The notes: a model not told the origin generated them from the letters alone. Numbered from the stretch's first letter, positions 11,794 through 47,772 are shown. The stretch: 47,772 nucleotides of DNA from a virus (IMGVR_UViG_3300017527_000131:1-47772); one strand, 5' to 3'. Program-made: numbers and translations.

Positions 11794-14700
11794 CTAAAAT
11801 TTAATTTGTATATCCTCGTCAGGAACTATCTCGTAGTTATAATCTTTTTCATAATCTTCAAACTTCCCTGTCATTTGTTGCATAGTATTCTTATGTCTCT
11901 CAATCAATGACAACTGCGCGCCAATCCTTTGTGCGCCTACCTGAAACTTATAATATTCTTTCCACTTCGCGTTAATCTTCTTTTGAATAAACGACCGTTC
12001 AATAGCAGAGTCAGCTTTGGATAATTCTTTTTCAAGTTCCTCAATGGTATTCTTTCCTAACAGCATTTCAGATTTAGCCTCAGCCTCTATAACTCCGAGC
12101 GCAGCCTTGAATAGCGGGTACGGATCTATTCCATTTTGAATAGCTGTAAAGTTTAGCGATTGGATTTCGTGTTCAATATCTTCAGGACTATCGTGCTTAC
12201 CGAAACCTTTGATCGCATATTCATATAGATCTATCAACTTCCTGCGCGTCGCTCCCTTTGAAGAGGGCATAGCAACGTCCAATAAGTATGACTCCTTATG
12301 AGGATATATCAAATTGCGAGTGCTGAATGGTAATGGCGTTTGTGCTATTGTTACCGCAGCCTGCCAAGTCCACGCCCAACCTTTAGCGTCCTTTAAAGCA
12401 TAGTTTTCAAATCCGCTTAGAGTGCTACCCGTAAATAATTCTATTGGTTTCTGCAATACAGGGTTAGCCTTTGCTCCAACTTTTTTAAGGAATGGTTTGC
12501 CAACTACAATCCCTCCGAAGTCAGATAGGAACAGCTCGAACAATTCTCTGAATTGTTTACCCCAACGTACATAGCGCTCAGTCCCGTCCTTGTATCTGCC
12601 TGCGAATAAGTGGCTCTTATGACCTACCACATTCCTGAACATTGTATCATCTTTCCAACCATAACTGTCCTGCTGATAATACTCTGGATTTTCCTCGCGG
12701 TCTCTGCGTCTAAAGAAAGCGTTTAACATATTCATACCGACACCGTAGTAAAGGAAAGCTCTCAACCAAAATGCTCCACCTATTTTCATTCGTAATCTTT
12801 TATTTGCTTTGTCGCTGTAGATAGCTCCTATACCTGCCGGAGAGAGTGCCTGCCTGATCGTAGATACCTGCCAATCAAAACTCAGTAACAATCGTTGAGC
12901 AGCCTTGACTCCTGACGGTTTCCTTATTGACTGCTGTATCTTCCCAACCTTTGGATTGAGCATAAGTATATCGAAGTTCTGTCCTCCAAAGGTATCATTG
13001 ACGAGCTGTGCTATTTCTCTTTTTGCGCGTACTAAGTCAGTACCGGTTACATCTTTTTTAATCTTTGCTACCTGAGACTCATACGCATACAGTTTTAAAC
13101 CGTCGTGTAACCAATCCCAAAGCGCGTGATCCCAACGCTCGTTGAATCCTGCCATAAGTTTAGCAACCCCGCCTCTAAAGAAATGATCTTTATGCTTATG
13201 AACTAAATTGTTTAGGAATTGTTGGATCTTCTGTACGGGAAAATCTGCTGACGCTCCCAACTGTAACCCGTGTATAACCCCGTCCTTTGCCAAATCAAGT
13301 TTAGTAAATGCAAGGTTATCTTTCTTAATGAATCCTCGATACACTAATGAAATAGGATTGATAATCTTTGCGGTTTGTTTAACGCCCATCATAGCAATTC
13401 CTGTTTCAGCAAGAGCGATATGGTGGAACAAACTGAGAGATAGGTTGGTTTTCTTTACAACTCCGCTTACCATATCATAGGCACGCCCAAGAGCATTAGA
13501 GTCGTGGACTTCAAGGATAACGTCGAGCGCGTCTTTGAGATCAGGGTGTACTGCAACGTCGACAGTAGACATTGTAGTTCCTTTGCCTTTGCCCGCAGAT
13601 CCAAACACAAGCCTGCGTAATGCAGGGTGGGACATACGTACCCAATTATCAGGAGCTTTACTAAGTTCTGAGATTAGTGGAACTCCCTCGACATTCATTT
13701 CTTTTACATCTTCAATAAACTGAGCGTTAGCCATAGCTCTGTATGTATTGCGACCGTGTAACATTATCAGGTTATTAATATCTAATTCTTTCGGAGCTAA
13801 ACCGTGTTCAGTAATACCCTCCATAAGTGTACCAATATATCTTTTCTTTAAGAACGGGTTAGTCCTTTGAAACCATTGAGTTACCGCTAAGTGTTTCTTA
13901 CCTTTCCACCTACCTACGTCCCATACGTGAGGCACATAGTTTAACTTCTGTTCATAGGTTAGATCCTCGTGGTACTCAGTCATTTCTTTCCATATATTAT
14001 CGAAGTGAGTCCTTGCCATATCAACGATTATGTTGAACTCTTTATCATTCTTCAGCTGTTGATAAAGTTTCTCAAGGTCAGGTCTGTTCAATACTTTAGG
14101 GACACCAGACTGCTCTATCAGGAATGGAATTACCTCTCTCTCTTCCTTAGTAGTGAGACTGTCTATCGTGTTTGTCAGGTCTTTAAGGTCAAGCATTTTA
14201 GAGGAGATCAATGCGTTGCGTAAGTATGCAAGCTCCCTAACCTGATAGCGATTTTGACTTCTAAATTCTTTTGACTCCTCAATGCCCTCCATAGCTTGAC
14301 GTTCAAGCTCGCGCTTTTTCATACGGTCGTCTAACTTCTTAACAACCTCAGATGTTGGTACAAGGTCATAGCTTATATCGGGAGTCTTTGCGCTGAACTC
14401 TCCGGTATTGTATAACGACTTAATAGCATTATCCTTATATACGCAGTAGGTATTAAACCCTGACTCGTTTAAGTAGGAGCTATCGTATCCGTACTTCTTA
14501 GCAATCTCTCCTACTATGTCCTGATCTACATAAGAAAAGATTTTAAGAGATCTATTCTCTGAGTGTGCGAGGAATAAATGATTTGAGTTTGAAGTCTCCC
14601 ACCCTGACATATCATAGTCAGTCTTACCTACAGCTGTTTGATCTTCTAACCATAGGTTATAATCGCGGACGAAACTCTCTTCTAACTCAGTAAGCATTTT

Positions 14701-17700
14701 CTCCGGTACGCCTGCCTCTCTCATATAGGATAGAAATTCTTTATAGTTACCAATCTCTTCCTCAGCCTGAACTTTAAACTTGATAGGATTTTTAATTGAT
14801 ACAAGCAACGGTAGTATATTCGCGCCCTTAATATCAGAACTGCTAAGATATTCGTGCATTGTAAACGGAGGCTTATAGTGAGGATCTATCTCTGTAAGCG
14901 CAGCAATCGCAGACCAATGAACACCGGTATACATCATAGCATACTCGCTCTCGTCTGTTATCCACCCTGCTACATTAGGCGAGGTATGGAACTTATTACC
15001 GTGTAACCCCTGATTGCGCGTCCCGTGATACATTATAACCGGATCTCCTAACTCGTCGATTAAGATAGATCCTTTATAGAACTGTTTAAATTTTGGATTG
15101 GTTGCAATTCCGTGTCGAACTTCGCGCATATCATAATCTTTTACAACCCGCTGCCCTTTATCATTCCTCTCTACAGGGTTATCTGTCCTATCAACAAAGG
15201 TATTCAATAGATCCTCGTCCGATATAAGCGCGTTACTCTCAGCGATTGCGTCCTGTTCTAAACTTAATTGATCCTGCTCCGTTATAGGCAGGGACTTCTT
15301 ATGTTTCTTTCTTTTGTTCTCAGTTAAATCCTGTTGCTGTTTCTTGACGGTCTTAGTGTTTTGTGCTTTTGGTTTATTAACAATAGGTTTCGTCTTGGTA
15401 TCAAGTGCCTCGATTGTTGCCTCCAACTTCGCAACCTCTTTTGCCACCCACTTATCAGCCTGAGTTTTTTTCTTCCCTGTAAGTTTTGTTGTTGAGCCTT
15501 TTAATGCAGAGATCTCCTGACGCATACGCGCCTCAGTAGGTTGGGAGGTATCTGTCTTATATCCTTTACTCCAAAGGAAGTGCTGTTCTGCAAAACCAAT
15601 GGTCTCAGCTATTCTATTCTTATCGCTTTCGAGAGATATAAATTTCTCCGTCATAACAGCGTCCTCTTCCGCTTCCCAATATTTTTCCTTACCTAATGTC
15701 TTTTCCCTGAAGATCGTCTTTAATAATATAGATCCGTCAGCGTCATACACATTAGTCGTAAGAGTATTCTTGCCCTTAACGAGCTGTATATTGTAGGTTT
15801 TACCTGCCACCTTAAACTGTTCAAATCCTTTTTTCTTCCACGTAGGAGACTTGTGTTCTGTAAACTTAGCAGGGTTGGGGTATCCTATCCATAAATCGCT
15901 AATCTTTACTGCTTTTTTCTTTTTCCCTTTAGCCTGTTGTTTTTTAGGAGTAACCTTTTTTGGCTTAGAAACTTTCTTACTTGGTGTCGTCTTAGCGCCT
16001 TTCTTATCTTTTGGTTTAGCTTTAACAAATTTCTTTTTCGCTTTTGGTTCTGCCTTATCCTCAATTAGTTCGAGGACATTTGTAAGTTTATATTTTTCTA
16101 TCTTACCACTTTTACCCTTTGCAGCAATATATGTATCGGTTATCTCTTCAACAACTATCGGATTAACATTATTGATTAATACTTTATCGCCAACTTGGAT
16201 TTTTTTACCGTTAAAATCTACAAGCGGTTTTGATTTCTTTTTGGGTTTAGTTTTCGGCTTGGTCTTAGACTTGGTAGTCTGCGGGTTTAACATCTGTGCT
16301 ATCCGCTTAGTTCTTTTCGCAGTAGGCTCATTAACAGATCTATCTAAATAGTCTACTAATTCCTCGTTTATCTTGCCCTCCTTAACTAATCGTGCAAAGG
16401 TTTGAGCGTCGCCAAACATAAGACTGAAATAATTTCTGACCTTATCTAATATCTTCCGTAACTCTTTATGGATTTTTCCTTTCGGCTCAACACCGGCAGC
16501 GTACCTGCGAGCTAAGGTACTAAACCATTCCTTGTTACTCTTATTGATTATGTCTCCAATGCTTGCCTCATACTCAGTTTTCCATTGTCCCACCTTAGTA
16601 TCCCAATCAGCGTCGTGTATACCCTCGTTATTATAGAACGCCTCGACTCTCTCCTCGACTACTGTCAATGGATTCGCTCCACCTAACACCTTAATTAAAT
16701 CCTTAGAGGCGTTACCTATCATAGCCTTTTCGTTAGAGCCAAGTATCTGAAACTGCTCAGGAGTCATTTTGATAGGATCAAATCCGTGTTCCTCGATCTT
16801 CTGCATAGCGTCTAACCACGTAATAGTACCGTCGTCTATATCGCTTTGTAGTGTACGAACTAAACTTGACAGCTCATATATCTGCTCGTCAGCTGTATCT
16901 AAATTCTCAAAATGTTTAACCGCGTCCTTAACTGCTGTATCAATATCTTTTTGAATAAGCGTAATTCTATCCTGTGTCTGCTCGCTTATCGTACCTAAGT
17001 CCCGCGTGATCGCTACCCACTCAGGCGTACCATAATCAAACTGCGAGCGCTTATCCTGTAATACCCATAACTGCGCATTTAACTGTCTAAGCGTTGGATC
17101 AGGAATGTTCTTAGTATTCTCAAGTCCTGCCTTTCCCTCTTCAGTTTGCATTTCTGCTTTGAGTTGGTCTATCTGCTCGACGGTTATATTGTCAGGTATG
17201 ACAATGTTGTCAGCAAGTACCAAGTTCCCTGCTCCCTCAACCTTACCACTCTTCAGGGTTTCCCTTAAAGTTTCTAATTGTTGGATAGTATTCTCAGTAT
17301 TCTCGCGGTTACGTAGATCTAACTCAGCTATCTCTTTTTCTGATACGACGTGCTTTCCCTCTTCAATAAATTTTATTGCCTGTTCAACTTCTTTATCCGC
17401 AGCAGCTCGTACTTCCTTGATAGTGTCATCAATGTTTGTGTCTATCCGTTTCTCAACTTTCTTCTGTACCGAGCGCGTATACATCTGCATAGGTAGCGTA
17501 GTAACTGACGACGCTCCAAGTCCTACAGCAAACGCGTCGAATGAGCCACTCCAAGCGTTAAGTTCTTTATTAACACCTGTATAGATGTCGTTTAAATTTT
17601 GTGTTACCTGTGTTGCAAGCTCTTCAACCCCCTCTATAACTCTGTCTGTTAATATAACTCCCTTATTTTTTAGTGAGCGTACAAAGGATTTTCCGAAAGC

Positions 17701-19155
17701 CTTATTGAAAGCCAACCCGCCTGTCTTAGATCCAAAGCGTTTTACAAACGCTCCATACATCTGACCTAATCTACCTGTACCTAATGTTTCAAATACACCC
17801 TCAGCTCCACCGTGTATAATCGCGTTTATTTGTTTGGTAATCATAGACGTATCGTCATAAGTACCATAATGTTCTGCTAACTGTTCATTAAGACCGTCAA
17901 TCATTTTTTGCTGTTTTATATCGGTAGGCTCTCCGTGAGTTCTACTTCGCTGTTCTTTCTGCCTGTTCTCTTCGTCAGCTGATAGCTCTGTAAACTTATC
18001 CCCTGCTGACATAGTGGATACTGTACCCATAATTGCGGGTAAGGGTACACCTGCATAGGCACTTGCCATTATTGCTAACTGCATAGGTATAGCCTCAGCT
18101 ATAGACTGAGAAGTTTGAGCAAGAGCGCGCATATAGTTACCCTCTTTGATGTCTCCACCAATAGAGTTGTCGAACTGTACCATTTCTGCCTGAGCGCTCT
18201 TTTGAATATTGTCATACAGCTGATACATTTTGTTACCGGTTGTAAGCACTTTAGGCGCGTGTCTCTCCATATTCTTGAACAATTCAGGGTTAGCTCTGCC
18301 GGTTACAGCGAGAGGTTTTAACCAAGAATTGCCGGGCAGTACCGACATAGCCTCTAATATATCTGCGTTCTCAGGTACTAATGATAATAAGTTTTGAGGT
18401 AGATACGCCATTTCTGCTACAGCTGTTGGAATTTGTGATACGCCTTTCCAAAACCACGCTGTACCTGATACTGCTCCCTGATATAAGCCTTTTCCCCACT
18501 CTTTAATTGAGATCTCTGCCTCGTCCTTTGCTAATATATTCGCGCGGATCTCTTCTTTTGATAAACGGGGAGACTTCGGAGGTACAAAGGTAGATTCGGC
18601 AGCTGCTTGTTCTGTTTCAATATTGTTAAATACTGCGTCCTCTTTCATTCTTCTCGCTCTGTCCCAACCTAAATAGTCCTTTTCAGACATAGCTGTACCG
18701 TTTTTAGTGTCTAAATAAGTACCGTCCTCCTGTGGAACTACGCGATTAGGGTGGTAATCATCTTTAAATTCAGACGGAAAGTGAGCGTTAGGCTCTCTAA
18801 TTCGTGCCATTTCCTCTTCATTCCACCTGTATTTATCATAATAACCGCGATAATCGTACATATTCTTTGGATCGTCAGGGTTTTGATTGAGGTATTTAGC
18901 TCCTGATATCTCACTATAAAACGATTGGAAGTCCTCTTCGGGATTTTTAATAGGCTCAGTCTTTGGCTCTCGTATTAATGCGTTAGGATATTTCTGCTTG
19001 AACAATCCTTGCATATCTTCAGGTACATATAGATCCTTTTCATCAGACGTATACAATATACCGCGTTGAGCTTTAGGATATTTCTGTAGAAATGCGTCTA
19101 ATTTTTCGTCAGCAACATCTACCTTTTGACCGTCAACATAGTACCGCTCAGGCAT
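11794..19155 (-). CDS. Giant polyvalent virion protein with ADP-ribosyltransferase-like domain
   Basis: The 2,453-residue protein is the last gene of the late operon and is probably packaged and injected with the DNA, as known for polyvalent proteins. The N-terminus has FxQKYPxA-type repeats and the DYRGYYDKY...HFPSEFKDDYHP element common to such proteins. Amphipathic segments (about 225-390) and coiled coil (about 560-760) follow. Next come Lys-rich linkers around a small KOW-like beta module (about 955-1090) and a separate domain to about 1205. An ART-like domain (about 1345-1600) shows VIMYHGT, GWITDESEYAMMY and NAIKSLYNTGEF. The FNTY segment lacks the glutamate expected in NEY-type ART motifs, so activity is uncertain. 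The C-terminal third contains LLLSFDWQVSTIRQ (about 2085) and a hydrophobic helix (about 2120-2143), typical of phage polyvalent C-termini. Confidence 0.75.
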   Translation of the reverse strand: MPERYYVDGQKVDVADEKLDAFLQKYPKAQRGILYTSDEKDLYVPEDMQGLFKQKYPNALIREPKTEPIKNPEEDFQSFYSEISGAKYLNQNPDDPKNMYDYRGYYDKYRWNEEEMARIREPNAHFPSEFKDDYHPNRVVPQEDGTYLDTKNGTAMSEKDYLGWDRARRMKEDAVFNNIETEQAAAESTFVPPKSPRLSKEEIRANILAKDEAEISIKEWGKGLYQGAVSGTAWFWKGVSQIPTAVAEMAYLPQNLLSLVPENADILEAMSVLPGNSWLKPLAVTGRANPELFKNMERHAPKVLTTGNKMYQLYDNIQKSAQAEMVQFDNSIGGDIKEGNYMRALAQTSQSIAEAIPMQLAIMASAYAGVPLPAIMGTVSTMSAGDKFTELSADEENRQKEQRSRTHGEPTDIKQQKMIDGLNEQLAEHYGTYDDTSMITKQINAIIHGGAEGVFETLGTGRLGQMYGAFVKRFGSKTGGLAFNKAFGKSFVRSLKNKGVILTDRVIEGVEELATQVTQNLNDIYTGVNKELNAWSGSFDAFAVGLGASSVTTLPMQMYTRSVQKKVEKRIDTNIDDTIKEVRAAADKEVEQAIKFIEEGKHVVSEKEIAELDLRNRENTENTIQQLETLRETLKSGKVEGAGNLVLADNIVIPDNITVEQIDQLKAEMQTEEGKAGLENTKNIPDPTLRQLNAQLWVLQDKRSQFDYGTPEWVAITRDLGTISEQTQDRITLIQKDIDTAVKDAVKHFENLDTADEQIYELSSLVRTLQSDIDDGTITWLDAMQKIEEHGFDPIKMTPEQFQILGSNEKAMIGNASKDLIKVLGGANPLTVVEERVEAFYNNEGIHDADWDTKVGQWKTEYEASIGDIINKSNKEWFSTLARRYAAGVEPKGKIHKELRKILDKVRNYFSLMFGDAQTFARLVKEGKINEELVDYLDRSVNEPTAKRTKRIAQMLNPQTTKSKTKPKTKPKKKSKPLVDFNGKKIQVGDKVLINNVNPIVVEEITDTYIAAKGKSGKIEKYKLTNVLELIEDKAEPKAKKKFVKAKPKDKKGAKTTPSKKVSKPKKVTPKKQQAKGKKKKAVKISDLWIGYPNPAKFTEHKSPTWKKKGFEQFKVAGKTYNIQLVKGKNTLTTNVYDADGSILLKTIFREKTLGKEKYWEAEEDAVMTEKFISLESDKNRIAETIGFAEQHFLWSKGYKTDTSQPTEARMRQEISALKGSTTKLTGKKKTQADKWVAKEVAKLEATIEALDTKTKPIVNKPKAQNTKTVKKQQQDLTENKRKKHKKSLPITEQDQLSLEQDAIAESNALISDEDLLNTFVDRTDNPVERNDKGQRVVKDYDMREVRHGIATNPKFKQFYKGSILIDELGDPVIMYHGTRNQGLHGNKFHTSPNVAGWITDESEYAMMYTGVHWSAIAALTEIDPHYKPPFTMHEYLSSSDIKGANILPLLVSIKNPIKFKVQAEEEIGNYKEFLSYMREAGVPEKMLTELEESFVRDYNLWLEDQTAVGKTDYDMSGWETSNSNHLFLAHSENRSLKIFSYVDQDIVGEIAKKYGYDSSYLNESGFNTYCVYKDNAIKSLYNTGEFSAKTPDISYDLVPTSEVVKKLDDRMKKRELERQAMEGIEESKEFRSQNRYQVRELAYLRNALISSKMLDLKDLTNTIDSLTTKEEREVIPFLIEQSGVPKVLNRPDLEKLYQQLKNDKEFNIIVDMARTHFDNIWKEMTEYHEDLTYEQKLNYVPHVWDVGRWKGKKHLAVTQWFQRTNPFLKKRYIGTLMEGITEHGLAPKELDINNLIMLHGRNTYRAMANAQFIEDVKEMNVEGVPLISELSKAPDNWVRMSHPALRRLVFGSAGKGKGTTMSTVDVAVHPDLKDALDVILEVHDSNALGRAYDMVSGVVKKTNLSLSLFHHIALAETGIAMMGVKQTAKIINPISLVYRGFIKKDNLAFTKLDLAKDGVIHGLQLGASADFPVQKIQQFLNNLVHKHKDHFFRGGVAKLMAGFNERWDHALWDWLHDGLKLYAYESQVAKIKKDVTGTDLVRAKREIAQLVNDTFGGQNFDILMLNPKVGKIQQSIRKPSGVKAAQRLLLSFDWQVSTIRQALSPAGIGAIYSDKANKRLRMKIGGAFWLRAFLYYGVGMNMLNAFFRRRDREENPEYYQQDSYGWKDDTMFRNVVGHKSHLFAGRYKDGTERYVRWGKQFRELFELFLSDFGGIVVGKPFLKKVGAKANPVLQKPIELFTGSTLSGFENYALKDAKGWAWTWQAAVTIAQTPLPFSTRNLIYPHKESYLLDVAMPSSKGATRRKLIDLYEYAIKGFGKHDSPEDIEHEIQSLNFTAIQNGIDPYPLFKAALGVIEAEAKSEMLLGKNTIEELEKELSKADSAIERSFIQKKINAKWKEYYKFQVGAQRIGAQLSLIERHKNTMQQMTGKFEDYEKDYNYEIVPDEDIQIKF

Positions 19156-20956: not shown

Positions 20957-23421
20957 TTTTCGCCCCACATTTTAATATCAATTAATATATTTCTTATTAT
21001 GTTAGCTCCCTCAACAAGAATAGACATAGTTCTGCCTCTTGATTTTGCAAGGGTTACTTGTCTTATTTCGTTTGGAACTACGCTACTTTTTTTGTCCTCT
21101 ACCTGCGTCTCTATGTCATTTACAACACGATTAACTCTCGTAGTAACATCAACACCGCTCCCCACAAAGTCCACTATCCACCGTTGGAATACTCCTTTTT
21201 TGATATAGAAGTTTTTGGTTTCAATTTTGGTCTCCGCGAGACAATATGATGTACCGGGATATTGCTGTAATTGCAGGTCAGAGTCTATCCATACGTTATA
21301 ATTCTTGTCTAAACTTCCACCTGCTAAGGTTATCGGTATATCAAGAATATTCAGTCCGTCAAATGTCGTCCACTTCCCTTTGTCTATATGATAAGCGTAT
21401 GATCTTGTCTGATCAATTATTCTTCCCCATACTTGTTGGTAGCCTAATGCTCCTGAGTATTTTGCCCACTTGACAAAGAAGAGTCCTCCCGTTAAAGGAA
21501 TACCCTCTTTATCCATACGACAGTCGTCCGTTGTCGCTACTTCCAACGTATAGGATAATAAAGTAACAACAGTATCGTTTGCATAACCATATATAACAGT
21601 AAGCGCCTGTGAGTTAGAATAATCTGAATATACCAACATAAACCCTGAGTCTGTACCGTCGCTCATAACTATAGGACGTGTTCCTGAATTGTTTACGCCT
21701 GCTAATTGCGTTGGAGTCCCTATTGTAACAGTCATATCGTCAACCGCTACAGGATATACACCCAAATCATAAGCTCCACCTCCAAAATAAGTCCCAACCC
21801 ATTGAGCGCATATAGCTCTCGTTGCAGAGGCTATTGTCATAGCTGTATATGAAGCGTTTGCAATAAATCCGGGATCTACTGAAGTCCCAAATGTAAGCAC
21901 GTCCCCTGTACCCGGATATTCTGCTACTGTATATTTATTACCTTGAGGAGCAAGGTTTTGATGATGTGTTATTAATAGTCTGTTGGTCTCTATTTGTTTT
22001 GCCTGAACAGAGGTAACTACTCCTCCTGAAATCCACGTTTGTACTGCGCCAAGAGTGATTACATTCCCCGCAACAGTCCCTACTTGATACTTCATTCCGC
22101 TTGCGTCAGCGCCAAAGACTACAAATTTTGTCGTTCCGTTTAGCCTTGCAATAGATGTTCGATATATTACAGTAAGGTCTGTAAGGACAGGAGTATGAAG
22201 TGTTATTGTAGTCCCTGAAACAGTCCCTACTACAATAGCTGTACCACCAATAGCTACCTGAGTATAACAATAAAGGAACTTGTCGTCCTCCCAACCAAAG
22301 ATAGACGTAGAACTTCTCCTTACATTTACAACGGTTTCAGGAAGTCCCTCAACTGATGATAAGAGTGTCTTGTCTATTGTGCTGACAATTATTTCATCAT
22401 CATCATAAGTCCCGCCATTTTGATTATTGGCAGTTACTACCTTTGCAGTTGTGTCTGTTTCTCCTATTACCCCAATATCAACAGCTGCCGCTTTCTCGGC
22501 ACTTGCAACAATAGCTCCCTTATCTAATGAATATAACTTCTCTCCAACAGCAAGGGTTTGTTTGTGTAGAATATATTGGTTTCTGATAGAGTTGTAAAAC
22601 GCCATATACTCGTCGTCGCCCACATCATCAATATTGATAATATCTTTACTAATTAACTCCATACCATTTTTATTCCACTTCCATACACCTTTCTCGCTTT
22701 GTCCGAATAGAGTTTCCCCCGCAAGAACAAGCGTTTTGGCGTGCATTAGTCCGAGATCTTTAAACTCTTCAATAAGATTGTCGGTCTGTGCGCGCCATTG
22801 TCCCGTACTAACGTCTGAGGTCAATATGAAACGATTGATAGTATTTCGCGTGAATAGCAAAAATGAGTTGTCATACTTAAACTGTAAGAATGACGGAGCA
22901 GGCATTATTCTAACTATAGGCTCTTTTAGATCCTTATAGTTAAGATCCGGTACTGCAATACCATTATAGTTCGTCCACCTAAATCTATGTGATACTTCCC
23001 TGTAGTCAATGTCTTTTGTCTCTCCAAAAGAAACATTTATATTCCTTTGATATGTATAGGTTTGCACTACTTGTACGAGGTCAACCTCGTCGTATAGGTG
23101 TACCGTGTCATTTGTAATCGCAATAATGTTAGTAACCACAACATCTTTAGTATAGTCGTCCCACAGATGAACTGTATCAGCTGTAGATTGAGCCAAAGAC
23201 GGTTGCCCTGAAACCCAAACAATCGGAGTCTCTTCGTATAGATGTACTTCATCATTTTGATATTTACTTAATGTCCCAACTCCTCCCGTTACGTCTGCGC
23301 TATCAACGTCGTCGTACAGATGTACCGTGTCCTCTTGAGTTAGATCTACGGGAGAGACTTGATCCGACCAATTATCCCGTAGATGTACCGTATCATTTTG
23401 ATATTGTGGTGTTAATGCCAT
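20953..23421 (-). CDS. Beta-rich tail protein with five N-terminal TVHL repeats
   Basis: The 822-residue protein opens with five units containing a (N/D/E)D(T/E)VHL(Y/W/R)(D/E) core, at about residues 11, 32, 58, 83 and 106, each followed by a short variable strand. The rest is beta-rich with WKWNKNG, QWRAQTD and Gly/Thr-rich segments, resembling propeller-like tail nozzle or stabilisation proteins of short-tailed phages. It could also be a receptor-contacting tail component. It is coupled to the ejection protein downstream and lies two genes from the second nozzle-like protein at 24559. The assignment is by composition and position only. Confidence 0.55.
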   Translation of the reverse strand: MALTPQYQNDTVHLRDNWSDQVSPVDLTQEDTVHLYDDVDSADVTGGVGTLSKYQNDEVHLYEETPIVWVSGQPSLAQSTADTVHLWDDYTKDVVVTNIIAITNDTVHLYDEVDLVQVVQTYTYQRNINVSFGETKDIDYREVSHRFRWTNYNGIAVPDLNYKDLKEPIVRIMPAPSFLQFKYDNSFLLFTRNTINRFILTSDVSTGQWRAQTDNLIEEFKDLGLMHAKTLVLAGETLFGQSEKGVWKWNKNGMELISKDIINIDDVGDDEYMAFYNSIRNQYILHKQTLAVGEKLYSLDKGAIVASAEKAAAVDIGVIGETDTTAKVVTANNQNGGTYDDDEIIVSTIDKTLLSSVEGLPETVVNVRRSSTSIFGWEDDKFLYCYTQVAIGGTAIVVGTVSGTTITLHTPVLTDLTVIYRTSIARLNGTTKFVVFGADASGMKYQVGTVAGNVITLGAVQTWISGGVVTSVQAKQIETNRLLITHHQNLAPQGNKYTVAEYPGTGDVLTFGTSVDPGFIANASYTAMTIASATRAICAQWVGTYFGGGAYDLGVYPVAVDDMTVTIGTPTQLAGVNNSGTRPIVMSDGTDSGFMLVYSDYSNSQALTVIYGYANDTVVTLLSYTLEVATTDDCRMDKEGIPLTGGLFFVKWAKYSGALGYQQVWGRIIDQTRSYAYHIDKGKWTTFDGLNILDIPITLAGGSLDKNYNVWIDSDLQLQQYPGTSYCLAETKIETKNFYIKKGVFQRWIVDFVGSGVDVTTRVNRVVNDIETQVEDKKSSVVPNEIRQVTLAKSRGRTMSILVEGANIIRNILIDIKMWGEK

Positions 23422-42642: not shown

Positions 42643-42843
42643 ATGTCAAAAAGTGTTAAGCAGCTCCCTGAAGAATTATTCACTACAGCGGAGATATGTA
42701 AGCGTTTCAAAGTATCCCGTCAGGCAATATTCCAATGGCGTAAACAAGGTATGCCTGTAGCGTGGCAATCCGGTGTAATAATCAGATACGACCTTGCGGA
42801 AGTATTAAATTGGTTGGATAAAAGAAAACATAATAGGAGATAG
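42643..42843 (+). CDS. Small HTH regulator
   Basis: The 66-residue protein carries a helix-turn-helix (TTAEICKRFKVSRQAIFQWRKQGMPVAW), a short beta wing (IIRYDLAEVLNWL) and a basic tail. It looks like an excisionase/MerR-like or Nu1-type DNA-binding protein. AGGAGGATAT immediately precedes the ATG. As the first gene of the rightward replication operon and directly opposite terL, it could be the autoregulator binding the GTTGCAA repeats, or less likely a small terminase. It ends two bases before the next gene. Confidence 0.65.
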   Translation: MSKSVKQLPEELFTTAEICKRFKVSRQAIFQWRKQGMPVAWQSGVIIRYDLAEVLNWLDKRKHNRR

Positions 42844-42845
42844 TT

Positions 42846-43577
42846 ATGGCGAAACGATTTACCGACTCGGATAAGTGGAAAAAAGGTTGGTTTCGTCGTC
42901 TTAGTCCTACACATAAGGTATTTTGGGAGTATATCAGAGATAATTGCGACGTAGCAGGAGTGTGGGAGGTTGACTTCGACCTTGCTATGTTTAACATTGG
43001 CGGGGAGTTAGATCCCTCAGAATGTTTAACTATATTCGAGAGGCACGTTCAAGTTATGAGTGTTACTCGTTGGCTCTTAATTGATTATATACCATTTCAA
43101 TATGGCTGTACTGCTGACGAATTGAATCCAAGCAACCCTGCCCATAAAGCTGTTATCAAATTGTTAAAGAAATACAATGCCCCTACCAATGCCCCTACCA
43201 ATGCCCCATACAATGGGGTACTGTATATGGATAAGGACAAGGATAAAGACAAGGATAAAGAAAAAACAGACGAGAAAACTGAAACAAAAGCTGAATCCTA
43301 TCAAAAAATAATTCCATACTTCTTGGATACTAACTTCTACGTAGCTTGGACGGAGCATAGATCCGTTCGCAAAAAGAAAAAAGGCGCACTCACACAGCGA
43401 GCTGATCTTTTGATATTAAATGCTTTGGCGAAATTAACAGAGTCCAAAGACGAGGCTATTATGATATTAGACCAAAGTTCTCGTAGCGGTTGGACGGGAG
43501 TGTTTGCGTTGAATACCGGGAAGAGCAATTCAAAAAGAACACCTATAGGAGATAAGAGCCAATATGAAAATTTATAA
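42846..43577 (+). CDS. Replication initiator-type protein
   Basis: The N-terminus (FTDSDKWKKGWFRRLSPTHKVFWEYIRDNCDVAGVWEVDF) matches phage replisome-organiser proteins with a winged-helix start. A middle linker holds NAPTNAPTNAPY repeats and a (DK)n tract, and the C-terminal helical domain ends near TPIGDKSQ. The helicase-loader gene overlaps its 3' end by 14 bases, the lambda O/P or DnaA-DnaC-like arrangement. The DNA encoding the NAPT repeats is a 12-bp iteron array, as in lambda where the origin lies inside gene O. It probably binds these iterons and recruits the loader. Confidence 0.7.
   Translation: MAKRFTDSDKWKKGWFRRLSPTHKVFWEYIRDNCDVAGVWEVDFDLAMFNIGGELDPSECLTIFERHVQVMSVTRWLLIDYIPFQYGCTADELNPSNPAHKAVIKLLKKYNAPTNAPTNAPYNGVLYMDKDKDKDKDKEKTDEKTETKAESYQKIIPYFLDTNFYVAWTEHRSVRKKKKGALTQRADLLILNALAKLTESKDEAIMILDQSSRSGWTGVFALNTGKSNSKRTPIGDKSQYENL
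43175..43220. repeat. 12-bp iteron array inside the initiator gene (candidate origin)
   Basis: CAATGCCCCTAC is repeated at 43175 and 43187, with CAATGCCCCATA at 43199 and the inverted form CAATGGGGTA at 43211. The GCCCC cores begin at 43179, 43191 and 43203, exactly 12 bp apart, with GGGG at 43215. CCCCAT-ACA-ATGGGG forms an inverted repeat at the right end. The same 12-bp periodic GCCCCATA motif recurs at 47109-47151. AT-rich, AAGGATAAAGAC-type repeats follow to the right. Confidence 0.65.
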
Positions 43578-44094
43578 AGACGCTAAACTCTCTAAACTTA
43601 TCAAGTTAGATTTTAAATTATCTTGGTATTTGTGGGGAGACGTAGGTGTAGGTAAGACGCATAATGCCTTTGGGTTACTCTATAAGTGGAACTTGAAATT
43701 AGAAAAACAACGCACAGTTGACGAGGAAAAAGGTATTTATGTAGGTTATCCATATATGCGTTTAGTTAATTGGGCGATATTAACAGACGACTTTCGTAAT
43801 ACACCCTTAGACGTAGATGTATTCGCAGGACAGAATCGTACAGAGAAAGAACGCTCTCTAATTCATAATAGATACCTTGTAATAGACGACATTGGAGCTG
43901 AGAAACGCAGCGACTATACTGACGATCTTTTAATGAGGTTGACTGAATACCGGTACTCTAACGGGTTATACACGGGGTTTACCTCAAATCTTTCTATTGG
44001 TAAGCTCCCGTATGACGCAAGAATAGTCTCGCGGATAGTGGGTATTACAGGTAATAACAAATTTAAAATAACCGGTAAAGACAGGAGGTTGTAA
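43564..44094 (+). CDS. DnaC-like helicase loader ATPase
   Basis: The 176-residue AAA+ ATPase has Walker A GDVGVGKT (residues 25-32), Walker B YLVIDDIG with D108 and D109, a sensor-like SN at 141-142 and Arg residues 153 and 157 as candidate fingers. The order and size fit phage DnaC/IstB-like loaders that place the replicative helicase at the origin. No phage helicase or polymerase is recognised in the window, so the host replisome is probably recruited. It overlaps the initiator gene by 14 bases. Confidence 0.8.
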   Translation: MKIYKDAKLSKLIKLDFKLSWYLWGDVGVGKTHNAFGLLYKWNLKLEKQRTVDEEKGIYVGYPYMRLVNWAILTDDFRNTPLDVDVFAGQNRTEKERSLIHNRYLVIDDIGAEKRSDYTDDLLMRLTEYRYSNGLYTGFTSNLSIGKLPYDARIVSRIVGITGNNKFKITGKDRRL

Positions 44095-44336
44095 TGGCAG
44101 AGGTTGAATTAGTTGAAAAGGTAATACAGGAACACGAAAACCTGAGAGAAACCACACTTTGTACTACGGTACAATTCGGTTATAGGCTCTCAGATAAAAA
44201 ATGGGTAGCGCATTTTATTAATCGCTACGGAGTATCAGTAACAGGAGATAATCTCGTCGACGTACTTGAGGAAGTCAATAGATACATAAAAGAGAATAGA
44301 CACCCAAAGCCTAATCACACGAAATTTATACTATGA
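44094..44336 (+). CDS. Hypothetical small protein, 80 aa
   Basis: Not recognised. It is a compact alpha/beta protein (KKWVAHFINRYGVSVTGDN, then an amphipathic helix LVDVLEEVNRYIKEN). The one-base overlap with the loader stop (TAATG), the AGGAGG-like site (44085-44091) and the four-base overlap with the next gene mark it as part of the replication operon. Confidence 0.6.
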   Translation: MAEVELVEKVIQEHENLRETTLCTTVQFGYRLSDKKWVAHFINRYGVSVTGDNLVDVLEEVNRYIKENRHPKPNHTKFIL

Positions 44337-44524
44337 GAGAGGAACTCTTAACTGTTCACGGGACAATTAAAACTGATAGGTTAATAGTTTTCTATAAGAT
44401 CCTGAAAGAAAAAAGATCCCGCGAGGGTAAGAAGTGCGAGGGGATAACCCGCAGAATTGACGAATTACAAAAGATAGAACTAAGAAAACACCTGAGAAAA
44501 AAATACGGAGTAACGAATGTTTGA
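44333..44524 (+). CDS. Small basic protein, 63 aa, related to 46142-46405
   Basis: The helical basic protein contains DRLIVFYKILKEKRSREGKKCEGITRRIDEL. The first part of the protein at 46142 has a similar LIQFYKELLKSKPRHKCVGIRNRLQQL, suggesting a duplicated helical hairpin with a conserved KCxGI. Function unknown. It overlaps both neighbours (4 and 8 bases). Confidence 0.6.
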   Translation: MREELLTVHGTIKTDRLIVFYKILKEKRSREGKKCEGITRRIDELQKIELRKHLRKKYGVTNV

Positions 44525-44687
44525 TTGTAGAAAAAAAGACTGTAACGGTAAATATAGAGTTAAGGCATACGCAGATCCACCTAAAATAGCCTTTTGTGAT
44601 AAATGTAATCATCAAATCACTCTGTCTGATCTGCGCGACGAGCAGATAGACCACGATATTAAAGAAATGAAAGAAAAAGATTTATAA
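44517..44687 (+). CDS. Zinc-finger peptide, 56 aa
   Basis: The frame MFDCRKKDCNGKYRV...AFCDKCNHQITL contains C4, C9, C27 and C30, a plausible Cys4 zinc site of the kind found in small ribbon proteins. An acidic helical tail follows (DLRDEQIDHDIKEM). The start overlaps the previous gene by eight bases. It may be a small transcription or replication accessory factor, but this is not shown. Confidence 0.6.
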   Translation: MFDCRKKDCNGKYRVKAYADPPKIAFCDKCNHQITLSDLRDEQIDHDIKEMKEKDL

Positions 44688-44824
44688 TTAAATTTGGTGG
44701 TAACTACAAAGGGGTTAAAACTTATTAAATGATTAAGGGTTAATCAGATTAAATTTATTTGTTTTGCTTGGAATCAAACTAAATAATAAATCAAGTTGCC
44801 ACCAAAAACTTAGGGAGAATATAA
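44688..44824. promoter_or_regulatory. Intergenic control region with inverted repeats
   Basis: TTTGGTGGTAACT (44693-44705) is matched by AGTTGCCACCAAA (44794-44806), an inverted repeat with one mismatch and 88 bases between arms. Inside lies a perfect palindrome, GATTAA-GGG-TTAATC (44731-44745). The stretch is AT-rich and separates the replication genes from the block of tiny genes. Operator, internal promoter or long hairpin are all possible. Confidence 0.45.
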
Positions 44825-45049
44825 ATGCCAAAGAAAATAATAGTTAGACTCTTTCAGAATGAGAAAGAAAAATTAGCTGCGGATAACAGGGAAATGTTCG
44901 TTGATAAGGACAACCATTTATCCATACAGAACGAACAAGACTCCATACCGGTACTCACACTCGCCCTCGACGACAAAGGTAGATTAATGGTAAATACGAA
45001 CTCGCGGAATCACATTAAGGAGGTTATGAAGAATCGAGTACAGTCGTGA
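44825..45049 (+). CDS. Hypothetical small protein, 74 aa
   Basis: Not recognised. The ATG at 44825 follows TAGGGAGAATATAA. The product has a basic, charged N-terminus (KKIIVRLFQNEKEKLAADN) and a beta-rich middle (IPVLTLALDDKGRLMVN). It is the first gene after the regulatory gap at 44688-44824 and overlaps the next gene by four bases (GTGA). Confidence 0.55.
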   Translation: MPKKIIVRLFQNEKEKLAADNREMFVDKDNHLSIQNEQDSIPVLTLALDDKGRLMVNTNSRNHIKEVMKNRVQS

Positions 45050-45243
45050 AAAAACTACTAAAAAGTATAAAGTGGTATCATTATATTTTTTTATGGTTGA
45101 TACCGGTACGAAAAACTATAGATATTGACAAAAAAACAGGTACTCTTACGGAGATCTACTACAAATACGTGGGTGGAAAGTTTTACATATACAAAGAAAG
45201 ATTTATAAAAACTACGGAAAATAAGGAATTAAATGAAAAATAA
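45046..45243 (+). CDS. Small protein with one hydrophobic segment, 65 aa
   Basis: The GTG start at 45046 overlaps the upstream stop (GTGA). A short hydrophobic stretch (YHYIFLWLIPV, residues 11-21) between basic residues suggests peripheral or single-pass membrane association. The rest is a small charged beta/alpha domain. Function unknown. Confidence 0.55.
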   Translation: MKKLLKSIKWYHYIFLWLIPVRKTIDIDKKTGTLTEIYYKYVGGKFYIYKERFIKTTENKELNEK

Positions 45244-45349
45244 AAAGCTATGCAAACTACATAGAGAAGAATTACATACGAATTTATTTGTGTTGCTAAT
45301 TGCTTTAATAGTTGGTGTAATTGTATATCTTTATGGAGGTTTTGAATGA
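45233..45349 (+). CDS. Single-pass membrane peptide, 38 aa
   Basis: The frame starts MKNKKLCKLHREEL and has one transmembrane helix (about residues 17-34, NLFVLLIALIVGVIVYLY). It overlaps the previous gene by 11 bases and the next by four (ATGA). N-terminal positive charges predict N-in topology. It belongs to a run of three membrane peptides, the other two at 45346 and 45631. Confidence 0.5.
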   Translation: MKNKKLCKLHREELHTNLFVLLIALIVGVIVYLYGGFE

Positions 45350-45477
45350 AAATAATTGACGAAATCGTCTCAATAGTCCTGAGCATTATAGCGATAGTAG
45401 TAATCTTTGTCGTCGCTTTGCTATTGGTATCTTGGGACTTAATTACAGGAGGAAGTAATGCTAAAAAAGCTGATTAA
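45346..45477 (+). CDS. Single-pass membrane peptide, 43 aa
   Basis: A long hydrophobic helix (about residues 7-29, VSIVLSIIAIVVIFVVALLLV) follows a short charged start (MKIIDE). ATGA overlap with the upstream gene and AGGAGG (preceding the next ATG) inside its 3' end show dense coding. Function unknown; it could modify the envelope or bind another membrane peptide. Confidence 0.5.
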   Translation: MKIIDEIVSIVLSIIAIVVIFVVALLLVSWDLITGGSNAKKAD

Positions 45478-45634
45478 GTGGATACATCAAAATTTTATTT
45501 GTCAACACGAAATTTGGAATCCGCACGAGGGTTGCAAGCCTTTCAGGATAGAGGGGAAATCATATAAATGGGGTTTGCACGCAGTTTGCGACAAATGCGG
45601 TCTTGAGCGCATACTAACTTCACGTCTCCCGTGA
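45458..45634 (+). CDS. Small zinc-binding protein, 58 aa
   Basis: AGGAGGAAGTA gives a strong ribosome site for ATG 45458. The product has an amphipathic basic helix (MLKKLIKWIHQNF), then C15, H17, C26 and a CDKCG pair at 44-47, a likely Cys/His zinc site. It overlaps the upstream gene by 20 bases. Similar CDKC peptides occur at 44517, hinting at a related role. Confidence 0.6.
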   Translation: MLKKLIKWIHQNFICQHEIWNPHEGCKPFRIEGKSYKWGLHAVCDKCGLERILTSRLP

Positions 45635-45735
45635 AGAGATACGTACTCATAATCGTAGGATTTATAGCTTTTGCGATAGTATATACCTATTACCTAAACT
45701 GTTTATTAACAATCTTAAAATGGATAGCAAAATGA
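45631..45735 (+). CDS. Single-pass membrane peptide, 34 aa
   Basis: The GTG at 45631 overlaps the upstream stop (GTGA). The reading frame (VKRYVLIIVGFIAFAIVYTYY) is one hydrophobic helix flanked by Lys/Arg, and its stop overlaps ATG 45732 as ATGA. The precise overlaps argue for translation. Confidence 0.45.
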   Translation: MKRYVLIIVGFIAFAIVYTYYLNCLLTILKWIAK

Positions 45736-46142
45736 AACTACATCTTAAAGCGCGTTGGATCTTATTTAAGCATTGGTTTGACAAGAAAACCTATAAGATA
45801 CGCGGGATACAAATGGAATTGGATTTTATTCATCAATTATTTGGACTTACCTATGCCTCTTGGATAGTAATGCCTCGTGTATTAATGGAAAATATGCCTC
45901 CTGATTGGCAGAAAAGATTTGTCGATATATGGGAAGAATTTAATGATACGTGGGATATGAACGAGGTATACAAACACGGAGATCCACACGTACAGCTGAG
46001 GAAAGGCGGTCGTTTTAACTCCATAAAACATACAGGTTTGCCTCACTACAGACACGCAAGTATGGCAGATCTCGAAAAATTTTTAAACAAATACGAGGGT
46101 TTGAGAAAATATGCAGGTTATCACGTACCGGAGGATCTATAA
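45732..46142 (+). CDS. Hypothetical protein, 136 aa
   Basis: ATG 45732 overlaps the preceding stop as ATGA; an in-frame ATG at 45720 would add four residues. The protein is helical with aromatic segments (YASWIVMPRVLMENMPPDWQKRFVDIWEEF) and a basic middle (LRKGGRFNSIKHTGLPHYRHAS). Not recognised. It overlaps the next gene by one base (TAATG), with CGGAGG as ribosome site for that gene. Confidence 0.6.
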   Translation: MKLHLKARWILFKHWFDKKTYKIRGIQMELDFIHQLFGLTYASWIVMPRVLMENMPPDWQKRFVDIWEEFNDTWDMNEVYKHGDPHVQLRKGGRFNSIKHTGLPHYRHASMADLEKFLNKYEGLRKYAGYHVPEDL

Positions 46143-46405
46143 TGGGTAAGCCACTTGGATACGTCGCAGACGACGCAAAATTTGAACATAACCTTAGTGA
46201 TGTATATTTAATACAGTTTTACAAAGAACTATTAAAAAGCAAGCCACGTCATAAGTGCGTAGGTATCAGAAATCGCCTACAACAGCTCATAGATCGCAAG
46301 AATCAGCCAAAGCCTGAGCCTAAAAAGCTCCCGCTCGGAAAGCCACACTTCAAAGGAGATCTAAACTTCCTCCTGTTTAAAACATTAAATAAGGATCTAT
46401 TATGA
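46142..46405 (+). CDS. Small basic protein, 87 aa, related to 44333-44524
   Basis: The first 60 residues hold LIQFYKELLKSKPRHKCVGIRNRLQQL, similar to the helical hairpin in the 63-residue protein at 44333. A Pro/Lys-rich linker (NQPKPEPKKLPLGKP) and a short C-terminal segment follow. Function unknown. Stop and start overlap the neighbours. Confidence 0.55.
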   Translation: MGKPLGYVADDAKFEHNLSDVYLIQFYKELLKSKPRHKCVGIRNRLQQLIDRKNQPKPEPKKLPLGKPHFKGDLNFLLFKTLNKDLL

Positions 46406-46743
46406 GCATTACTGCATTAACTCCACAAGTAGAGAAAGCTCTAAAAGATGTACCTGAATACAGAGACAGCGATACGCGCCTCGTAGCTTATTTAATTTGG
46501 AAAGCAGTACAAAAACACGGGGTATATTCAAAAGAAGAGCTGTCCGCGATACATAGGTTTCTATCTTTCTACGCTAAAAAGAAATATCCACACCCTCCGA
46601 CAATAAAAAGAGTCCGCGCAAAGCTACAGGAGGAAAATCCGGAACTCAGAGGCGAAAAATATTACGAAAGAAAACACACCCAAGCTCCCGCAGTTCAACA
46701 AGAATTAGGCTACGGTAACGTCTATAAGGATAAGAGATTATGA
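46402..46743 (+). CDS. Hypothetical phage protein with RDSD motif, 113 aa
   Basis: The N-terminal half (VEKALKDVPEYRDSDTRLVAYLIWKAVQKHG) resembles a type of small phage protein with a PxxRDSDxxL motif found near replication genes in many genomes. The second half is basic and helical (YPHPPTIKRVRAKLQEENPELRG). No function is established for such proteins. Four-base overlaps occur on both sides. Confidence 0.6.
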   Translation: MSITALTPQVEKALKDVPEYRDSDTRLVAYLIWKAVQKHGVYSKEELSAIHRFLSFYAKKKYPHPPTIKRVRAKLQEENPELRGEKYYERKHTQAPAVQQELGYGNVYKDKRL

Positions 46744-46931
46744 AAAAAATCGGTCAACAAAGATTTATTGAAACTTACTGTCTTGTAAGGGTATTAGTTA
46801 CAAGAGAAAAACATTTCGACCACAAGAAAGTTAAACAATTTTCCAAATTTAACGATCATTATGTAGAAGAGTGCAAAAAACAACTCATACACGAGGGAGT
46901 AATAGACCAAGATACTCTAAAGGTAATCTAA
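46740..46931 (+). CDS. Hypothetical small protein, 63 aa
   Basis: Last gene of the rightward replication block. The product is basic and helical (FIETYCLVRVLVTREKHFDHKKVKQF) and may be a small winged-helix-like domain; no family is recognised. ATGA overlap couples it to the previous gene. A weak hairpin followed by eight T's begins about 36 bases after its stop. Confidence 0.55.
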   Translation: MKKIGQQRFIETYCLVRVLVTREKHFDHKKVKQFSKFNDHYVEECKKQLIHEGVIDQDTLKVI

Positions 46932-47049
46932 AAATCCTCGCCCGCAGCGGTTTTGTTCCATTCAGCCGGAGGCGGTGTAGTCCACTATAACATACTTCCT
47001 CCGACTCGAAATTTTTTTTATTCCAACCTTTTTCGTATATTCCTATCAT
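46885..47049 (-). CDS. Doubtful antisense frame with strong ribosome site
   Basis: TAAGGAGGTATCAATG (leftward) gives near-perfect ribosome-site spacing to ATG 47049 and opens a 54-codon frame (MIGIYEKGWNKKNFESEEV...) that overlaps the end of the rightward gene at 46740. The peptide is basic and resembles nothing I know, and an inverted repeat stands just upstream (47064-47100). It may be a small counter-transcribed gene or chance. Confidence 0.2.
   Translation of the reverse strand: MIGIYEKGWNKKNFESEEVCYSGLHRLRLNGTKPLRARIFRLPLEYLGLLLPRV
46967..47019 (+). terminator. Weak terminator candidate
   Basis: CGGAGG (46967-46972) pairs with CCTCCG (46998-47003) around a 25-base loop, and eight T's follow at 47012-47019. 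It lies directly after the last rightward gene. The stem is short and the T-run is eight bases away, so termination strength is doubtful. Confidence 0.35.
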
Positions 47050-47063
47050 TGATACCTCCTTAT

Positions 47064-47100
47064 GGCAGTCAAGTTACCTATTACTTACCACTTGGCTGCC
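47064..47100. repeat. Imperfect inverted repeat (hairpin)
   Basis: GGCAGTCAAGT (47064-47074) and ACTTGGCTGCC (47090-47100) form an 11-bp stem with one wobble or mismatch and a 15-base loop. TATCTTTTAT follows on the right and TAAGGAGGT (leftward strand) on the left. It is directly adjacent to the iteron array, so it may be part of the origin, a terminator or an RNA structure. Confidence 0.5.
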
Positions 47101-47108
47101 TATCTTTT

Positions 47109-47151
47109 ATGCCCCATTGTATGCCCCATACGTTGCCCCATAGTAAGCCCC
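47109..47151. repeat. Second 12-bp iteron array (candidate origin)
   Basis: GCCCC cores start at 47111, 47123, 47135 and 47147, exactly 12 bp apart: GCCCCATTGTAT, GCCCCATACGTT, GCCCCATAGTAA and GCCCCTTTATAG. The motif and period equal those inside the initiator gene (43175-43220); both arrays contain ATGCCCCATAC. The same protein, probably the initiator encoded at 42846, should bind both. Confidence 0.65.
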
Positions 47152-47388
47152 TTTATAGCTCCTACTAAATTATTATTTTTTTTATTCTTAGAACACTAAG
47201 AGACTTCCGGTGGTGGGTGTGTGAGATATATATATAACCGACACCCCTCGCCCGCTTGATATGGGTGGGTATGCCTGATCGCATAACACGCCTGACCTGC
47301 CTGTAGCCTGCGAACTGACCGCTGTAAACGCTTACATATCATACACTTAGGTCTGCGTACCAATTTGTCGAGAGTTGCAACAAAATAG

Positions 47389-47757
47389 GTAAAATGTTGC
47401 AGGATTTGGATATACTGATACAATATCTCCTCCCCCCTACGTAGTTTCGTCGATATGTAAACAATCTTGTCGCCACTCCCTCTTGGAAACTCCCTATGAT
47501 TGACGAGAATAGCTTGTAAGTGTTTGTGGTGTGGGCAGATAGGGGTGTAGGCGAATGGTTAAGTTGCGAATCAGTCTCAATATAGTGAGGGATATTGGAA
47601 TTTGGGTAGCAAAAATGGTTTAAGGCTGAAAAGCCTTAACTGTACTGTACTGTACTATGTTAGTTATATATATATATAATATACTATACTGCGCCTGCGG
47701 GCGCGCACGCGTTCGGAGACCGACGGGAGACAGGGCTGTTTTTGCGCAACATTTTAC
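47389..47757. repeat. Long-range 12-bp inverted repeat
   Basis: GTAAAATGTTGC (47389-47400) is the exact reverse complement of GCAACATTTTAC (47746-47757). The arms lie 345 bases apart. A perfect palindrome GTTGCAAC stands 13 bases before the left arm (47374-47381), sharing the GTTGCAA operator-like motif of the terL intergenic region. Between the arms lie the GAAA hairpin and the AT-rich tract. Confidence 0.5.
47620..47690. other. Hairpin, CTGTA repeats and alternating AT tract
   Basis: TTAAGGCT-GAAA-AGCCTTAA (47620-47639) forms an 8-bp stem with a GNRA tetraloop. It is followed by CTGTA repeated three times and then an alternating TA stretch to about 47690. The AT tract would melt easily, as expected for a DNA-unwinding element, while the hairpin could be an RNA primer or structure signal. 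Confidence 0.45.
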
Positions 47758-47772
47758 TGATACTAAAGGCTA

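Follow-up and report, generated by a model that had tools for sequence, protein, structure and literature searches.

The window, by which we mean the whole 47,772-base stretch of DNA analyzed here, is an IMG/VR virus record in which a gene for a putative replication initiator is preceded by a small helix-turn-helix (HTH) gene and followed by a gene for a DnaC-like helicase loader (Table 1). Two short arrays of repeats with GCCCC cores, designated arrays 1 and 2, lie within the initiator gene and in non-coding DNA toward the end of the window, respectively. A purine-rich hexamer tract directly follows array 1, and an AT-rich stretch lies beside array 2. The frame of the first gene in the window is open to base 1, where it is cut by the contig start, and a search of the window for an end repeat found none, so that the “terminal” position of array 2 refers to the contig end and not necessarily to the end of the genome.

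Table 1. Genes, repeat arrays and adjoining tracts at the initiator locus and around the second array.
Feature	Position	Strand	Basis
Gene for a small helix-turn-helix protein (66 aa), immediately before the initiator gene; alternative candidate repeat binder	42643..42843	+	PHROG; HTH_17-like
Putative replication initiator of 243 aa, with a conserved N-terminal domain (1-110), a disordered linker and a C-terminal part that is helical	42846..43577	+	PHROG 678; AlphaFold2; BFVD
Array 1: three direct 12-bp iterons (GCCCC cores) and one inverted GGGG site, in initiator linker codons	43176..43219	+	TRF; position and helical phasing kept in homologues
Hexamer tract ATGGAT-AAGGAC-AAGGAT-AAAGAC-AAGGAT-AAAGAA-AAAACA, read as MDKDKDKDKDKEKT; putative DNA unwinding element	43227..43268	+	
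DnaC-like helicase loader, 176 aa	43564..44094	+	PHROG 50 (E 2.5e-22); PHROG 3277 (E 1.2e-13)
Array 2: four GCCCC sites spaced by exactly 12 bp, in non-coding DNA; presumed to be a second cluster bound by the initiator	47108..47151	+	TRF; shared motif
AT-rich stretch TAAATTATTATTTTTTTTATTC beside array 2; no hexamer periodicity	47167..47189	.	

The GCCCC cores of array 1 lie at 43179, 43191 and 43203 and are followed at the same 12-bp spacing by the inverted GGGG at 43215, while those of array 2 lie at 47111, 47123, 47135 and 47147. ATGCCCCATAC is common to both arrays and occurs nowhere else in the window, and seven of the nine GCCCC/GGGGC sites in the whole 47.8 kb lie inside them. The window has five pairs of GCCCC at 12 bp and three triples, whereas 300 first-order random sequences yielded 0.017 such pairs on average, never more than 1, and no triples. 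TRF independently calls both arrays, each with a period of 12. Array 1 is translated as NAPTNAPTNAPY, whereas the sole ORF across array 2 (46953-47168, TTG start, 71 aa) looks non-genic. These observations bear out what a sequence-only reading had claimed of the locus, namely that two arrays share one period and one sequence, and that the first lies in the linker codons of the initiator gene and the second in non-coding DNA.

The putative initiator belongs to a large protein family. An AlphaFold2 model built on 54 homologues predicts the N-terminal domain (residues 1-110) with confidence, leaves residues ~121-151 unstructured and renders the C-terminal part helical with moderate confidence. 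The match to PHROG 678, “replication initiation O-like,” is weak (E 2e-6) and covers the linker and the C-terminal half; the same profile is matched by 15 of 55 initiator homologues. Foldseek matches in BFVD are viral proteins, some of them named replisome organizers, while no Pfam family was found for the protein and sequence and fold searches of the PDB returned nothing useful. The only GenBank phage record found to encode the N-terminal domain is that of Pseudanabaena phage Pan5, with the annotation “hypothetical protein.” Relatives are encoded in at least 454 viral-contig stretches (454 of the first 600 candidate stretches listed), in a few bacterial genomes or MAGs (Bacteroidota, Desulfobacterales, Omnitrophica, Melainabacteria) and in no member of a plasmid collection. 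The cultured strain Chitinophaga chungangae MAH-28 encodes one such relative (L093). Narrow searches of the open-access literature, with subscription papers outside their scope, found no account of the family. The homologues combine a single type of N-terminal domain with many kinds of C-terminal half (O-like, DnaD-like, Phg_2220_C, primosomal), the repeat-bearing linker forming the junction, which suggests domain swapping at that point. The HTH protein encoded just upstream has PHROG 57/66 and HTH_17-like matches, and it matches terminase-small-subunit and excisionase PHROGs about equally.

The conservation of array 1 became apparent from the linker DNA of 55 dereplicated initiator homologues, most of which carry short repeats there about one helical turn apart, mostly every 11 bp. 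Averaged over the homologues, the linker DNA has a self-identity of 0.447 at lag 11, 0.366 at lag 22 and 0.334 at lag 12, with values near 0.25 at most other lags, while the N-terminal codons of the 55 genes reach 0.30 at lag 11. With synonymous recoding of the linker peptides as the null model, the combined p-value for this periodicity is 2e-44; with random windows taken from the contigs concerned, it is 1e-37. Kinship among the homologues inflates the significance of both values. A qualitative argument is stronger than these values: with an 11-bp period, the reading frame shifts from one copy of the motif to another (AAG CCC CTT, then A AGC CCC TTA), a pattern that a peptide repeat cannot yield. 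As 11 is not a multiple of three, it is the DNA rather than the peptide that has been kept. Several homologues, e.g., L007, have no clear linker repeats. The sequence-only reading had proposed a search of the whole window and its relatives for GCCCC with a 12-bp period; a search for GCCCC pairs at 11-12 bp, run over 49 records genome-wide, found them almost only in the initiator gene; a read-backwards control gave none.

The initiator of the window is of a minority type with a 12-bp, in-frame period, and its own recoding p-value is 0.036, so that the window taken alone is weakly distinguishable from a peptide repeat. These two properties favor an explanation in which array 1 is a mere repetitive, disordered peptide linker (NAPT, KDKD) and its likeness to array 2 a coincidence. 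It is already disfavored, and we regard it as highly improbable, by the 11-bp period of the homologues and their use of the same DNA motif in different frames, by the restriction of ATGCCCCATAC and most GCCCC sites to the two arrays, and by the recurrence of hexamers and iterons in non-coding DNA of relatives, described below. The resemblance of array 1 to the lambda ori in gene O, which had been pointed out from the sequence, is thus well supported by conservation at the DNA level across a large family.

The position and phasing of the linker repeats are constant among relatives, while the iteron sequence differs. The cores found in different phages include AAGCCCCTT and its variants, TTGCCCAAC, AAGGGT, AACGGAC, GCCCC and AGAGGTC. 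The relatives nearest to the window phage by terminase (60-65% identity), G011 and L103, carry AAGGGKCAT at the same linker, and L101, also a near relative by terminase, carries ~7-8 copies of AGAGGTC there. Many iteron sites have symmetric arms, such as AAG-CCC-CTT, ATG-CCC-CAT and GTTG-CC-CAAC, as read by eye from the sequences. The family is a natural series, with iteron sequence and initiator varying in step, in which the co-evolution of initiators and origins could be studied.

Directly after the linker iterons, the hexamer tract has a 6-bp period (lag-6 self-identity 0.62), a purine content of 0.77 and an AT content of 0.69, against 0.64 for the whole gene, so that an AT-rich or strand-asymmetric tract is present beside the iterons. 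The tract is translated as KDKDKD or MDMVMDK, and in coding DNA alone it could be a charged linker. However, the hexamers TAAAGA and TAAAGC also follow extragenic iteron arrays in non-coding DNA of L070, L084, L085 and L087, with lag-6 values of 0.50-0.68 (95% of random windows have ≤0.45 and 99% ≤0.53). The extragenic hexamers of L053 are weaker (0.47), and ACAAGTACAAG is common to the extragenic and in-gene copies of that contig. The occurrence of hexamers beside iterons in non-coding DNA as well indicates that the tract is a DNA element, most likely an unwinding element. The KDKDKD linker, an odd feature for a protein, would then be a probable by-product of this element: a disordered linker tolerates any peptide that DNA dictates, which would account for the location of the repeats there and for a linker that reads NAPT-NAPT and KDKDKD.

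Iterons outside the initiator gene were found in six contigs besides the window. Clusters of at least three sites of a phage’s own motif outside this gene numbered seven in 1.25 Mb, where permuted cores gave 0.65 on average and reversed cores gave none; the seven include one near-duplicate contig pair (L052/L053) and two clusters inside ORFs (L009; L070 at 28675), which were set aside and not counted as modules. The whole iteron-plus-hexamer module is copied in non-coding DNA of L070, L084, L085 and L087, and also of L053, the modules of L084 and L085 having been detected as two-site clusters or with the cores of two close relatives, L070 and L087. L070 (G043:275-304 and 22928-22970) and L084 (3816-3858 and 14065-14094, with the contig oriented so that the initiator is on the + strand) have two extragenic modules each, one shortly upstream of a terS-terL-like pair and one beside lysis-like genes, where the gene names come from reading translations and not from a family search. 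Most relatives examined are without extragenic modules, and many of the contigs are partial. GCCCC hairpins with T runs or A/T flanks, present in G011 and L049, were discounted as likely terminators. Within the initiator gene, a second motif cluster occurs at codons 15-27 in ~16 of the 55 homologues, all of the AAGCCCCTT class; the recoding test for this cluster over all homologues is marginal (p = 0.034), so that protein constraint may also explain it. This cluster (e.g., AAGGGGCTTACAAGGGGCTTATAAGC) precedes the linker array by ~290 bp, within the codons of the conserved N-terminal domain, and its carriers are L014, L034, L043, L047, L049, L056, L061, L063, L072 and others.

The location of some modules just upstream of late-type genes makes a regulatory role the main rival to an origin. 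The repeats would then be operators of a phage transcription regulator, either the upstream HTH protein or the initiator acting as one, with the extragenic copies controlling late- or early-operon promoters and the copy inside the gene serving an internal promoter or autoregulation. The modules of L070, L084, L085 and L087 are indeed placed shortly upstream of the first gene of the terminase pair or of a lysis-type gene, TATAAT-like AT-rich DNA follows the extragenic arrays, and the HTH gene adjoins the initiator gene in L101, L102 and L103 as it does in the window. Nevertheless, the widespread copy is the one in the linker, with its hexamer tract, while extragenic copies are rare, and there is no obvious need for a promoter in the initiator linker of so many phages, whereas in-gene origins are well known. 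We consider operators unlikely, albeit the strongest of the competing explanations.

Unlike the extragenic modules, array 2 has no hexamers on either side. A full reading of the corresponding non-coding region of G011, the closest complete relative, found no counterpart of array 2; the apparent completeness of G011 is indicated by ~109 bases that recur at its two ends. No phage record matches the non-coding end region of the window at the DNA level. Searches with two genes near array 2 gave no relatives for one, and for the other gave relatives without GCCCC arrays nearby. As far as the data go, array 2 seems specific to this phage or its near kin. The sole viral-contig match to its exact motif, L124, is an unrelated contig with a two-copy coincidence and was rejected. 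The four sites of array 2, its adjoining AT-rich DNA and its freedom from coding constraint could be taken to mean that it is the working origin and array 1 a relic or autoregulatory site, but array 1 is intact, has the hexamers that array 2 does not and is conserved in the family where array 2 is not, and we find this reversal of roles improbable. Array 2 probably serves the initiator protein as a further binding site, most likely with a role like that of the SPP1 oriR, as a secondary origin or fork-stalling site, or as a control site; it may also be an operator. The two-site origin proposed in the sequence-only reading has thus fared unevenly. The shared motif is real, and a second array of this motif, together with comparable copies in some relatives, makes a two-site system plausible, whereas the absence of array 2 from G011 and of hexamers beside it counts against the proposal.

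We think it likely that array 1 and the hexamer tract constitute an in-gene replication origin bound by the initiator, and that array 2 is a second cluster of sites for this protein. In a series of steps modeled on this architecture and on SPP1, the N-terminal domain of the initiator would bind the GCCCC iterons, which, being about one helical turn apart, should share one face of the double helix; the purine-rich hexamers beside them would then melt, and the neighboring DnaC-like loader would deliver the replicative helicase. Array 2 would act as a separate cluster of sites for the same initiator. The replication neighborhood, with a helicase loader next door, an O-like profile match and structural matches to replisome organizers, supports an origin. 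GC skew, which had been suggested as a further mark of the origin, is confounded with gene direction and provides no independent signal.

Several known systems share parts of this design. In iteron plasmids, copy number is controlled by handcuffing, in which the initiator pairs arrays, and the initiator could likewise bring together the two same-iteron arrays here, although the present element is a phage. A close architectural parallel is with Bacillus phage SPP1, in which oriL, located within gene 38, and oriR both combine direct repeats bound by gp38 (G38P) with an AT-rich unwinding element; on oriR, gp38 has been proposed to stall forks and thereby trigger the switch to concatemers (PMC6316719). 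The window likewise has direct repeats in the initiator gene and a distant second site in non-coding DNA, linked by a shared motif, as well as a putative AT-rich unwinding element and a helicase loader gene adjoining the initiator gene. A two-site design, which had been thought unusual, accordingly has a precedent in oriL and the distant oriR, both bound by gp38 (PMC6316719). The two systems differ in that oriR combines repeats with an AT-rich unwinding element, whereas array 2 combines repeats with AT-rich DNA that is without the family’s hexamers, and in that binding and replication have been demonstrated for SPP1, whereas the present architecture is read from sequence. SPP1 was not among the matches in searches with this initiator family. 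In lambda and the Stx phages, iterons and an AT-rich tract are situated in the middle of gene O, between its functional halves (PMC7466680), and the window resembles them in that the coding sequence of its initiator contains tandem iterons, here conserved as DNA, with an AT-rich tract after them. Lambda has four iterons and the Stx phages six, with a single origin (PMC7466680), whereas the sites described here recur every 11-12 bp, vary widely in sequence between relatives and have further copies in some genomes. The oriL of phage P1 is placed in repL, and its AT-rich part is sensitive to synonymous mutation (PMC9948254); the likeness is an origin, putative here, within the initiator gene. That paper does not use the word iteron and is not known to describe a second array (PMC9948254).

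In-gene origins and two-site systems are already known, while the initiator family, the repeat grammar and the copied modules look new. Dozens of mostly uncultivated relatives appear to share the in-gene origin design with the window phage, and sequence alone points to a likely replication origin in a large set of uncultivated phages, with relatives encoded in the hundreds of stretches noted above. We suggest, tentatively and at somewhat less than even confidence, that a large, mostly uncultivated phage initiator family uses a two-part grammar of fast-changing 11-12-bp iterons and (AAAGAT)n-type hexamers, hidden in the linker and copied as a module, with up to three modules per phage, which would give several origins or fork-stalling sites per small genome. 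The system offers a test of why some phages retain more than one origin-like site.

Other features of the window may be recorded. The long non-coding end region (46932-47772) has (TA)n palindromes at ~47217-47247 and 47653-47686, an ACTGT pentamer run at 47639-47656 and a GC-rich segment near 47692-47712. By far the largest ORF of the window encodes 2453 aa on the minus strand (11794-19155), and part of it matches G011 at 37% identity.
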